Translations under genes and position numbers: made by a program
The notes under the pieces: generated by a model
Seen by the model: the letters and a program-made list of their open reading frames with translations, nothing else
What the model was told of the DNA's origin: nothing
Databases searched by the model: none
Shown here: positions 1-19,345 of the stretch, one piece after another
Layout: each line of letters starts with the position of its first letter
How positions within the stretch are numbered: the first letter of the stretch is position 1
Assembly (NCBI GenBank): GCA_944392795.1
Contig: CALXXX010000015.1
Span: forward strand, 1 to 39,329
DNA from: an uncultured Alphaproteobacteria bacterium
GTDB taxonomy: Bacteria > Pseudomonadota > Alphaproteobacteria > CAAHEQ01 > UBA3637
Length of the DNA: 39,329 bases
Direction of reading: 5' to 3'

Positions 1-1
1 A

Positions 2-1765
2 CCTCGTCGCGTGTGTAAAATGATTTTGCGTTTAGAGCCGACGGACATAGATGAGATCCGGATAGGAAGGGATAAAGCGGTGTATAAACGAGGGTTATGG
101 GATTTATGTGAGACACATGTTGATGAAGTGACAGATACAGTATTGATGAGTTTTTATTTTGAGAAGGCCTGTGAGACGAATGGGGACTGTAGTGCTTGCC
201 AAGAATGTTATCAGGGTCGTTGTAAAGCGAACTATGGATTGCCGGGATGCGGAGAACCTGTAGAATGTAATGGAGATGGTGATTGTCCGGATGGTTTATG
301 TTGTCGTGATGGTTCTTGTACGACGAATTGCGGTATAGAAACATGTGATCCACCTTGTGATGAGTGTCACAGATGTGATGAGAGTTTACGTCAATGTATC
401 AAGAATACTTGTTCTATAGAGAGTTGTCCTGAGGGGCAAGAAGCGAGTGGCTATGATAAGTGTGGATGTATAGAAGGCTGTATAGAGAAGTGTCCAGATT
501 TGAAGTGTAATGAGGAGTGTGAGGTCCCGAACTATGAGACCTGTAGTTGTGATGCAAAAAAATGTGAGATAGAATGTATCGAAGGTGAAGTTCCTACAGG
601 AGTTGATGAATGTGGGTGTCCGATTGAATGTACTAAAGCGTGTGAACCACCATGTGGATTATGTCAAGATTGTGTTGGAGGGATTTGCCAAAATGTAGCA
701 GATTATGAATGTTGTATAAACCCTAACAGTTGCGCATGTAACCCCTTGAACCCGTGTTGTGATTTAACTGGTGCAGAGTTAAAGTGTTGTGAAGATCCAA
801 CGAACAGCTGTTGTATTAGTCCAGAAGATCCTTGCTGTGAAGATTCAGAAGATATCTGTTGTGGTTTAACAGGTAAAGCTAAAGAGTGTTGTGAGAATTT
901 TGATCCAGAGACATGTATTGAATGTTCTGCTGAACAACCATGTCCAGATGGTGTTTGTTCCGGTGGATATTGTGTACGTTGTCCAGATGGTATACAATCT
1001 AGTTTTGTTTGTTGTGCTTTAAGCGGAAAGTGGACAGGTTCCATTACAGGAGAAGGGTATTGTTGCACGAAGGGAGCGGATGAAAATGAGGAATGTTGCA
1101 CGGCAGAAAAAGGTGTTTGGTGTGGCTCTCGGTGTTGTTTAAACGGAGAGTCGTGTCAAAATGGGGTTTGTTGTTCAACGCCGGTGATTACCAGTTGTTC
1201 TAATTTATGTACTTATTTAGGAGTTAATGCAAGTGGATGTTCTACCTGCCTTCCTAAAGTTTGTCCTGCAGGGGAAACATGTGATCCTCAAGACGGCTTA
1301 TGTAAAAGAATATGTGGAACAGGACAAATAAGCTGTAACTCTGGAAATACAAGTTGGTGCTGCCCTGAAGGTAATACTTGTGGTTCTACAACAGGTCAGT
1401 GTTGCTTGAATGGGGTTTGTTGTGAAAGTTGGCAAAAGGCTTATATTTCTGAAGGTAAAACTGTGTGCTGTACAGATGATCCTAATAAAGATCCTTATCA
1501 TCTTTGTTGTAAAGAAGAAGGAGAAACTCTTCAGAATCAGGCTCTTAATCAGGCATCAGATTTTGATTACATTTGTTGTAATGGAACGATGTTCATGGAT
1601 GCTTCTTATGTTGGTGGTTATACATGTTGCCCAAAAGGACATACACTTAAAACTTTTGTTTTTGAACCATTAGGTCCCCAAACTGTTGGCGTTTGTTGTG
1701 CTCCTGGGCAAAAACCAATTGCTGTAGATACTGGCGGTTATGGAATAACTTATTACTGTGGTTAA
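2..1765 (+). CDS. Very cysteine-rich repeat protein, 5' end outside the window
   Basis: The reading frame is open to the left edge, so the gene is probably cut; the first possible start inside is a GTG at 11. I count about 100 cysteines in 584 residues. After about 50 non-repetitive residues the protein becomes a chain of short Cys modules: CxxC pairs, then from about residue 230 repeated CC doublets (such as CCLNGESCQNGVCC), ending GYGITYYCG. The spacing recalls granulin-like or other disulfide-stacked repeats, but I cannot assign a family. No transmembrane segment is visible in the part present. So much cysteine suggests an exported, disulfide-linked surface protein; that is inference, as the N-terminus carrying any signal is missing. 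An A24 prepilin peptidase lies at 15593, but nothing here shows a link. No strong terminator follows; a 7-bp inverted repeat is at 1802-1822. Confidence 0.7.
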   Translation, partial: PRRVCKMILRLEPTDIDEIRIGRDKAVYKRGLWDLCETHVDEVTDTVLMSFYFEKACETNGDCSACQECYQGRCKANYGLPGCGEPVECNGDGDCPDGLCCRDGSCTTNCGIETCDPPCDECHRCDESLRQCIKNTCSIESCPEGQEASGYDKCGCIEGCIEKCPDLKCNEECEVPNYETCSCDAKKCEIECIEGEVPTGVDECGCPIECTKACEPPCGLCQDCVGGICQNVADYECCINPNSCACNPLNPCCDLTGAELKCCEDPTNSCCISPEDPCCEDSEDICCGLTGKAKECCENFDPETCIECSAEQPCPDGVCSGGYCVRCPDGIQSSFVCCALSGKWTGSITGEGYCCTKGADENEECCTAEKGVWCGSRCCLNGESCQNGVCCSTPVITSCSNLCTYLGVNASGCSTCLPKVCPAGETCDPQDGLCKRICGTGQISCNSGNTSWCCPEGNTCGSTTGQCCLNGVCCESWQKAYISEGKTVCCTDDPNKDPYHLCCKEEGETLQNQALNQASDFDYICCNGTMFMDASYVGGYTCCPKGHTLKTFVFEPLGPQTVGVCCAPGQKPIAVDTGGYGITYYCG

Positions 1766-1926
1766 TGTGCATTTAGTTTACATAAGGCTTTGTATTTTAT
1801 CTACTTAATTTATTTTTAAGTAAAATGATAAATTACTTTTTAAGTTTCTCTTTTAAATCTGGGCTTTTATAACAAATCTTTTTTGACTTCTTTCAGAGCT
1901 TAATTGACATGTCCCGGAGATGTCCC

Positions 1927-2043
1927 TTAACCACAGGAGCACCCTCCGGAGCAAACCATCACTTCAACAAGATTCCCATTACAACCATTTTTCGCATAAG
2001 CCTTTAATAAACGAATATTCGCCGGCGTCAAACCCTTAATCAT
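1927..2043 (-). CDS. 38-residue ORF resembling the C-terminal tail of [FeFe]-hydrogenase
   Basis: This ORF runs from an ATG to TAA and encodes a peptide whose second half reads GNLVEVMVCSGGCSCG. In [FeFe]-hydrogenases the last H-cluster motif has the form VEVMxCxGGCxxG, preceded by a short helix like the NIRLLKAYAKNG seen here. The rest of a hydrogenase (the other cysteine motifs) is absent on either side. A stop codon lies five codons upstream in frame, so this is not the visible end of a longer ORF. The start is preceded only by a weak ACGAG. It lies 50 bp downstream of a two-gene unit on the same strand and could be carried on its transcript. It may be a real small Cys protein or a gene remnant; the similarity was judged by eye. 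Confidence 0.4.
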   Translation of the reverse strand: MIKGLTPANIRLLKAYAKNGCNGNLVEVMVCSGGCSCG

Positions 2044-2093
2044 ACATAACTCGTTTTAGTTAATAAATAAAAGAAGCTTAGATAATATTAAAA

Positions 2094-2399
2094 TTAAGCA
2101 ACGTAAATCTCAGGTACCTTGCGCAGTGGAACTTGATAGTTGCGAACAACCTCTTCTTTTTCTGGTCGAACTTCAAGCATTTCAACAAAGGCAGATTTTA
2201 ATAAATCCTCATGAACTGTGGGATTGATATAATCTAGCAAAATACATTCTTTCGGGGTGCGCAAAAAAAGTGCATTATCTCGCCCGTCATATTGCAAATA
2301 AGAATCATAAGCATCTTCATTTCTGGCTTGAATGAGAATTAAAAAGATTCCTTCTTTAGTCGGCTGAATATAGTATTTTCGTTCTTGAAGCATATTCAT
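2094..2399 (-). CDS. Small conserved protein, paralogue of the gene at 28414
   Basis: I do not recognise this 101-residue protein. It has no signal peptide or membrane segment. It aligns over most of its length with the 103-residue protein at 28414-28725: shared pattern YDG...ALF.RT....I.LDY.N, then a variable stretch, then VV.NY.VP. The two therefore form a small family. The start is ATG at 2399 with AGGAGG five bases upstream; this Shine-Dalgarno overlaps the TAG stop of the preceding gene (2409), so the two are probably translationally coupled. Its paralogue is likewise the second gene of a coupled pair, but with an unrelated-looking first gene. Confidence 0.8.
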   Translation of the reverse strand: MNMLQERKYYIQPTKEGIFLILIQARNEDAYDSYLQYDGRDNALFLRTPKECILLDYINPTVHEDLLKSAFVEMLEVRPEKEEVVRNYQVPLRKVPEIYVA

Positions 2400-2746: not shown

Positions 2747-3974
2747 AGTCGATAAGCTCGTAAAAATGCCGTTTACCAATTTTAATCTTTATTCCTTTTT
2801 TTAAGTTTTCTATTTTAAAGTAAGGATCGGTTATTTTATCTCCATTAAGACTGACGGCACCGCTTTCAATCAAACGTCTAAGTGCAGATTTACTCTCATT
2901 TGGCTGTAAGGCAGAAACAACATTCAACAATCCGATATTTTGGGTCGATAAGGATAGTTTAGATAAGCTGATGGGTTCAAAAGCTTTTATATCAAATCCT
3001 TTTTGTTGAACTTGTTGATAAAAGAAAGCTTCTGCTGCTTGGGCAGCTTCTTCGCTATGGTATTGGCGAACAATATCAAAGGCAACTTTCTTTTTTAATT
3101 CCATAGGATTGACTGTCCCATTTTTATAGTCTGCAATCATATTCGCTTTTTCTTCTGGCGTAAAATCTGTTGTCAATTCTATCCATTCAGGCAGTAAATC
3201 ATCAGGAATAGACATTGTTTTACCATACATATCATTAGCTGTATCCGTTAATCCTATGTAGTTTCCTTTTGATTTGCTCATTTTCATAACACCATCTAAT
3301 CCTCGTAGAAGTGGCATGGAAATGACAGTTTGACCGACTTCTTTTTGTCCAAAAGCTTCTTGGAGCGTTTTTCCGACTAAACAGTTAAATAATTGATCTC
3401 GACCTCCAAACTCAATATCACAATTCATCGCGACTGAATCATAGCCTTGAACCATAGGATAGACTAATTCATGTAAAGAGATAGGGATGTTATTTTCAAA
3501 TCGATTTGCAAAATCTTCGCGTTGCATCATTTGAGCCAAAGTTGCTTTTCCTAAGAGCTTGATAACATCCGCGAATGTCATTTTGTTGAGCCAAGCACCA
3601 TTGAATAGAATTTTGACATTTTTTTTTGTATCAATAACTTTATCCATTTGTTCAATGTATGTTTGAGCGTTTTTTTGAACTTCCTCAGCCGTTAAAGGAG
3701 GACGTGTTGTATTTCTTCCGGTCGGATCACCGATGCAGGCAGTGAAATCACCGACCAATAAATGGATTTCATGTCCTGCTTCTTGAAAGTCTCTTAATTT
3801 TTTGAAAGCGACAGCATGTCCTAAGTGTAAATCAGGGGCTGTCGGATCCATACCGAATTTGATAATCAGAGGGCGTTTTTCCTTTTCGGCTAGTTTTAAC
3901 TTTTCTTCTAATCCATTTGCAGGTACAATTGTTTCAATACCATGTTTTAATTTTTTTAATGTTTTTGCGTCCAT
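2745..3974 (-). CDS. tyrS: Tyrosyl-tRNA synthetase
   Basis: Class I aminoacyl-tRNA synthetase that charges tRNA-Tyr with tyrosine in the cytoplasm. At 409 residues it has the usual bacterial length. The HIGH-type signature is HLGH at residues 50-53 within DPTAPDLHLGH, and the second signature is an intact KMSKS at 231-235. The tyrosine-site region GYDSVAMNCDIEFGGRDQ lies at about 177-193. The last 70 residues form an S4-like RNA-binding domain (ALRRLIESGAVSLNG). The start is ATG at 3974 with AAAGGAT upstream. It lies 57 bp after the cckA homologue with no terminator between, so the two are probably co-transcribed; a terminator follows directly. Confidence 0.97.
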   Translation of the reverse strand: MDAKTLKKLKHGIETIVPANGLEEKLKLAEKEKRPLIIKFGMDPTAPDLHLGHAVAFKKLRDFQEAGHEIHLLVGDFTACIGDPTGRNTTRPPLTAEEVQKNAQTYIEQMDKVIDTKKNVKILFNGAWLNKMTFADVIKLLGKATLAQMMQREDFANRFENNIPISLHELVYPMVQGYDSVAMNCDIEFGGRDQLFNCLVGKTLQEAFGQKEVGQTVISMPLLRGLDGVMKMSKSKGNYIGLTDTANDMYGKTMSIPDDLLPEWIELTTDFTPEEKANMIADYKNGTVNPMELKKKVAFDIVRQYHSEEAAQAAEAFFYQQVQQKGFDIKAFEPISLSKLSLSTQNIGLLNVVSALQPNESKSALRRLIESGAVSLNGDKITDPYFKIENLKKGIKIKIGKRHFYELID

Positions 3975-19136: not shown

Positions 19137-19345
19137 TTGGATGAAGTATTTTTTTGAAGCTCTTTTAAAATAAAGACCCTAAGAGCGCTAGATAAATTTG
19201 TTGTTCTTTGAGCGTCAATATCTGTAATCAACGCAATTAAAGATATATTTCGATTATATGCTATTTCTTTTAAAGCATTCCAAAATTCTTCTTCTAATGA
19301 AACGCTTGTCGCATGTCCTTGAATGACAAGAGAGTGTTTTTTCAT
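19133..19345 (-). CDS. Ribbon-helix-helix domain protein (alphaproteobacterial type)
   Basis: A 70-residue protein with the layout of the alphaproteobacterial RHH_4-like family: beta strand HSLVIQGHATSVSLEEEFW, then the helices ALKEIAYNRNISLIALITDID and NLSSALRVFILKEL. Proteins of this fold bind DNA as dimers; its target is unknown. The start overlaps the sspB stop as ATGA, so it is translated with sspB. It ends inside the last bases of convergent prmC. Confidence 0.85.
   Translation of the reverse strand: MKKHSLVIQGHATSVSLEEEFWNALKEIAYNRNISLIALITDIDAQRTTNLSSALRVFILKELQKNTSSN

Follow-up and report, generated by a model that had tools for sequence, protein, structure and literature searches.

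The 38-residue ORF at positions 1927-2043 of the window (the entire 39,329-nucleotide stretch analyzed here, which is contig C15 of the 1.29-Mb, 41-contig genome G000) is the readable start of a truncated and decaying hydrogenase gene end, that is, of a partial-duplication pseudogene. We consider it probable that the ORF is a non-functional scar comprising the last ~70 codons of a hydrogenase gene, deposited as the downstream flank of an imported Cys-rich 3′ module. Gene tails of this kind are stacked at other Cys-rich loci as well, a real and apparently undescribed pattern. The relevant features of the window are:

1..1765, plus strand: 3′ part of a Cys-rich gene (17% Cys); the contig begins inside the gene
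1791..1836, strand unspecified: A+T-rich inverted repeat located between the hydrogenase tail and the Cys-rich gene; may act as a weak terminator (-8.6 kcal/mol)
1809..2040, minus strand: duplicate of a hydrogenase 3′ end that shares 82% identity with the C38 gene terminus and is interrupted by TAA codons and one additional base
1828..2198, minus strand: shared segment (end of the 101-residue gene, junction and hydrogenase tail) that recurs at the atp locus of G001:C7
2043..1927, minus strand: 38-codon ORF; hydrogenase codons from residue 416 in the parental frame, ending at the first TAA (1929..1927)
2041..2093, minus strand: junction between the 101-residue gene and the hydrogenase tail, which supplies the ATG of the ORF (from alignments and the upstream sequence)
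2094..2399, minus strand: 101-residue gene, the convergent resident neighbor, preceded by AGGAGG; intact in G001:C70 and G002:C26

Parentage and decay of the hydrogenase fragment

The original prediction placed an ORF at 1927-2043 and likened its product to hydrogenase C-termini. The ORF is indeed present, on the minus strand, which had been left unstated, and profile matches together with DNA homology show that the likeness is real. The product, MIKGLTPANIRLLKAYAKNGCNGNLVEVMVCSGGCSCG, resembles the C-terminal end of [FeFe]-hydrogenases and matches Pfam PF02906 (E = 1.4e-4, profile positions 216-244 of 245), though below the curated cut-off (22.0 vs 22.1 bits). NCBIfam TIGR04105 (E = 4e-4) and TIGR02512 (E = 2e-3) are matched at the same profile end, and a search of solved structures with the peptide returns a weak hydrogenase match (E = 0.22) as its sole result. 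The ORF lacks the full catalytic domain and the complete set of three H-cluster motifs, containing the last motif only (VEVMVCSGGC).

At the DNA level, window positions 2040..1809 (minus strand) agree with the hydrogenase gene on contig C38 of the same genome at 191 of 232 positions (E = 2e-57). The homology begins abruptly at residue 416 of 484, covers residues 416-483 with four TAA codons and extends about 25 bp past the parental stop, which corresponds to 1835..1833. After 38 codons, TAA replaces CCA and CAG in the parental frame, and an additional base and further stops follow. The start codon (2043..2041) lies just beyond the hydrogenase homology, in junction DNA, and no clear Shine-Dalgarno sequence is found upstream of it, in contrast to the AGGAGG before the 101-residue gene. 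Because the match continues past the stop, is broken by in-frame TAA codons and a frameshift, and takes its ATG from the flank without a clear ribosome-binding site, we assign the fragment as a partial-duplication pseudogene; homology to an intact parent, truncation and disabling mutations are all present (82% over 232 bp). The ORF is therefore not free-standing, as had been proposed, but the start of a broken 232-bp hydrogenase 3′ end. The rest of that end directly adjoins it, contrary to the statement that no other hydrogenase part is nearby. Likewise, the stop-free frame over the conserved region, which had been thought notable, was inherited from the parent gene, and the coincidence is not independent evidence.

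Genome G000 encodes two complete [FeFe]-hydrogenases, the Pfam assignments of which were made on their G001 orthologues. The parent, a 484-residue protein ending ...AINGLTPANVRLLKAYAKNGCDGNLVEVMACPGGCSCGPGTCPGRVNQALKEVKKICSESPDLKEELQK, is encoded on C38 behind a Rex-like regulator, and its gene is convergent to a Cys-rich gene; the second is a 600-residue HydA-type protein encoded on contig C8. The search for a full hydrogenase in the same genome that accompanied the original prediction thus has a positive answer. The suggested remnant of a lost hydrogenase gene is a remnant, but a partial duplicate whose parent is intact, and we reject a lost hydrogenase.

Inverted repeats (AAAAAGCGGTTTTA..AAAACCGCTTTTT), probably bidirectional terminators, lie 3′ of the hydrogenase stop in several copies (L044, L045 and L047), and the window tail carries an inverted repeat of a different, A+T-rich type. 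Rfam reveals no credible RNA element in the gap, the one match (E = 0.42) falling far under its gathering score.

The ORF had also been proposed to encode a small, hydrogenase-derived cysteine protein, and its motif cysteines are retained. Over the 111 bp compared with the C38 gene, dN is 0.061 and dS 0.72, mostly silent changes with a ratio of about 0.085. The same stretch gives a similarly low ratio between two living hydrogenases, those of G000 and G002 (0.042/0.69), so that divergence before capture explains the value: it is expected of a piece captured from a diverged, living hydrogenase gene. The low ratio fits such a capture, and as a sequence measure taken by itself would also be compatible with selection on the ORF. 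The sole other known copy, at G001:C7, differs from the window tail at 3 of 216 bases. One difference is silent and within the ORF, leaving the peptide identical, and the other two change residues behind it; selection cannot be shown from three differences between two genomes. G002, the third genome of the genus, lacks the fragment, and the frame comes from the parent and runs immediately into decayed parental codons. With no clear translation signal and one further copy only, a living small protein is very unlikely, and we reject it for want of both a translation signal and conservation.

Gene tails beside Cys-rich genes

The Cys-rich gene at 1-1765 is convergent to both the hydrogenase tail and the 101-residue gene. 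The window copy lacks its 5′ end. A full-length relative begins with MKNKKQFGRSMIEMLGVLAVIGMLSIGALAGF, which to the eye resembles a type IV prepilin N-terminus with a class III signal or G-x-S-hydrophobic-E motif (KKQFGRSMIEMLGVLAVIGML), and has no Pfam match. Relatives of the gene are encoded at 10 or more places in G000. A conserved Cys-rich coding block is common to many loci, and contigs break in it; about a dozen G000 contig ends lie inside Cys-rich genes, as expected, since repeats break assemblies. Named relatives of the group to which G000 belongs are uncultured gut-type Alphaproteobacteria MAGs.

Beyond the hydrogenase tail, the window continues with the 101-residue gene, a 95-residue gene and tyrS. 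The 95-residue gene (2409-2696) looks internally shortened and is a short relative of 265- to 277-residue proteins (MPLKE.../MSLKD..., ...TLISK), which adjoin Cys-rich genes elsewhere (L077:1576-2373, L070:3808-4641). At the right end of the window, the gene at 37527-38738 matches a G001:C4 gene (L151:467-1651) whose neighbors are an SDR gene and a Cys-rich gene. The window contig is therefore probably bordered by Cys-rich loci at either end.

The junction found in the window recurs in a sister genome, G001. At G001:C7, the order is an atp-operon 68-residue gene, a 101-residue gene tail, the hydrogenase tail and a Cys-rich gene, with the same junction as in the window. The two segments are 93.6% identical over 389 bp and 96% over 1828-2193, and their hydrogenase tails are identical at 213 of 216 positions. 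The last ~100 bp of the window 101-residue gene are closer to the G001:C7 tail than to the 101-residue gene of G001 itself. At G001:C10, an intact hydrogenase gene is followed by a second hydrogenase tail (78%) and then a Cys-rich gene. G001:C7 and G001:C10 share continuous homology of ~980 bp (62%) from the tail into the Cys-rich gene, and the Cys-rich C-termini are 45% identical. At two loci, a hydrogenase tail thus lies next to the same type of Cys-rich C-terminus, and given the continuous similarity the two appear to have traveled together. The Cys-rich C-terminus beside the window tail is of another type than that in G001:C7. No trace of hydrogenase is found at the tyrS/101-residue locus of G001 or the 101-residue locus of G002.

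The tail identity between G000 and G001 was considered as a sign of recent transfer and dropped, as another intergenic stretch (window 19137-19341) is identical at 205 of 205 positions between these genomes, which differ by 8% in their hydrogenase genes. Tests of the tail identity against hydB (p = 1e-4) and tyrS (p = 0.04) agree with recent transfer, but are not relied on. Identity along these two genomes is very uneven.

For G000, G001 and G002, we compared the gaps that separate Cys-rich genes from their convergent neighbors, starting at the resident gene and ending at the Cys-rich gene; three gaps were searched singly and the remainder were compared only with retrieved loci. In the two closest genomes, G000 and G001, fragments of gene 3′ ends recur in each of the seven convergent gaps that exceed 300 bp, while none of 17 shorter convergent gaps gave a match. 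Besides G001:C7 and G001:C10, the arrangements are:

Window (G000:C15): 101-residue gene, hydrogenase tail, Cys-rich gene
G001:C28: tsaC, ctrA tail, 101-residue gene tail, Cys-rich gene
G000:C4: rlmH, uvrB piece, ctrA tail, Cys-rich gene
G001:C4: SDR gene, weak ctrA tail, Cys-rich gene
G000:C28: recR, 233-bp kdsB end (reversed), Cys-rich gene

The ctrA-like response regulator, uvrB, the cytidylyltransferase (kdsB) and the hydrogenase were identified by searches, and the other genes are what we take them to be by sequence recognition. The source genes of the tails are the hydrogenase gene (hydB), the 101-residue gene, ctrA, uvrB and kdsB. In their normal places, all but kdsB directly face a convergent Cys-rich gene, with such contacts at G000:C38, G001:C70, G000:C21, G000:C32 and others. 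Four of five sources adjoining Cys-rich genes is unlikely to be chance, because only a few dozen of the ~1,200 expected genes can adjoin one. As controls, we took two convergent gaps of the window that do not adjoin Cys-rich genes; neither holds a gene tail, and one contains a tRNA-Ala. Gene ends thus occur in seven of seven long convergent gaps beside Cys-rich genes and in neither of the two control gaps, although this control is small.

The reversed kdsB 3′ end occupies L074 (G000:C28) 3198-3430, behind the Cys-rich gene, and the normal G000 kdsB is cut by a contig end. Right behind kdsB in G001, a gene start that contains 12 consecutive C residues (ATGTTCATTTCTAACAAAATTACCCCCCCCCCCC) is found at a contig end (L147, G001:C25, 3007-3142). 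Similar starts (M..T-PPPP) occur in Cys-containing ORFs of G002 (L143:3-287 and L082:4327-5178), and these poly-C/PPPP-start genes are possibly phase-variable.

Proposed exchange of Cys-rich 3′ modules and competing explanations

We infer the direction, order and recombination mechanism of the exchanges as follows. The donor would be a piece of DNA, from another locus or strain, in which a Cys-rich gene lies tail to tail with a hydrogenase gene. One join would form by homology within the conserved Cys-rich coding block, and the other immediately past the convergent resident, where homology would be slight or absent. This resident gene would be kept, the Cys-rich gene would gain a new C-terminus, and the truncated end of the donor's neighbor would be left between them. 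A known process of this kind, homology-facilitated illegitimate recombination, has been proposed for the displacement of Vibrio T6SS effectors (PMC5361080). Repeated swaps would stack the tails, the one nearest the resident gene being the youngest. For the window, a module would have left the hydrogenase locus together with the end of that gene and landed behind the 101-residue gene, and in the G001 lineage a copy carrying both tails would then have reached the atp locus. As the Cys-rich C-termini of the window and G001:C7 differ, at least one later exchange, nearer the Cys-rich gene, must be assumed, which counts against module exchange. So do the reversed orientation of the kdsB piece and the failure to find kdsB next to any Cys-rich gene of this family.

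A second complete hydrogenase gene may instead have stood at the window locus and been deleted in place, leaving its end. The fragment does keep the direction and downstream place of a normal gene, and 82% identity to the living copy would allow for an old paralogue. This account is nevertheless unlikely, as the same junction is found at a different locus, the atp locus of G001:C7, where only the tail is present; the corresponding 101-residue loci of G001 and G002 are free of hydrogenase traces, and the tails of unrelated genes hold the same position at other Cys-rich loci. Assembly error is barely credible. The genomes are MAGs with contigs that break inside Cys-rich genes, yet the window junction is internal to its contig, and a second MAG, separate from the first, carries it too, there next to a different flank.

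The tails might also be retained as working parts, either homology arms or terminators, that home Cys-rich modules beside the same genes. Recurring tails do come from genes that themselves adjoin Cys-rich genes, the final ~100 bp of the window 101-residue gene look as if a crossover had used the G001:C7 tail, and a terminator-like inverted repeat follows several hydrogenase copies. However, the tails decay and do not agree in length or breakpoint, which is what passive scars would show, and many Cys-rich loci have none, which makes a working role improbable. Module exchange may extend to the whole genus, a proposal we advance tentatively: Cys-rich pilin-like genes would diversify by swapping 3′ modules among scattered loci, each exchange depositing the end of the housekeeping gene next to the donor, and the stacked tails would record the order in which loci were visited and may act as homology arms for later moves.

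Related systems and significance

The closest parallel is the displacement of T6SS effector and Rhs C-terminal modules in Vibrio cholerae, which leaves orphan arrays (PMC5361080). There, as here, a constant 5′ part is combined with exchanged 3′ parts, the leftovers stack as a record of exchange, and homology at one end with illegitimate joining at the other has been proposed. In Vibrio, however, the leftovers belong to the system itself, being its immunity genes or old tips retained at the locus, whereas those at the Cys-rich loci are ends of unrelated housekeeping genes, apparently from other loci. We regard the tail scars as probably a variant of known module-exchange scarring. Integrating elements can also duplicate gene 3′ ends and leave a truncated end downstream of other genes, but the breakpoints described here vary by copy, and neither an integrase nor a shared attachment site was noticed near the tails, although no systematic search was made. 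Relative to [FeFe]-hydrogenases of the TIGR04105-like type (group B), the fragment derives from the 3′ end of such a gene but has only the last H-cluster motif, with the remaining protein absent. Neisseria pilin variation uses silent cassettes. The MafB toxins of Neisseria exchange C-terminal cassettes (PMC4287609). Both systems resemble the Cys-rich family in having a constant N-terminus, many alternative C-termini and recombination between copies; they differ in that no promoterless cassette array was found here, the copies being spread around the chromosome and each standing next to a convergent gene.

As such, the ORF is nothing unusual, being part of a duplicated gene and a passive scar; the pattern around it warns against taking short ORFs with conserved motifs in such gaps for genes. 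An incomplete literature search found nothing on this Cys-rich gene family in gut Alphaproteobacteria. The tail pattern would provide a natural record of past gene moves without the need for population data, and it suggests that these poorly studied gut Alphaproteobacteria have an undescribed family of Cys-rich, surface-type proteins that recombines strongly.
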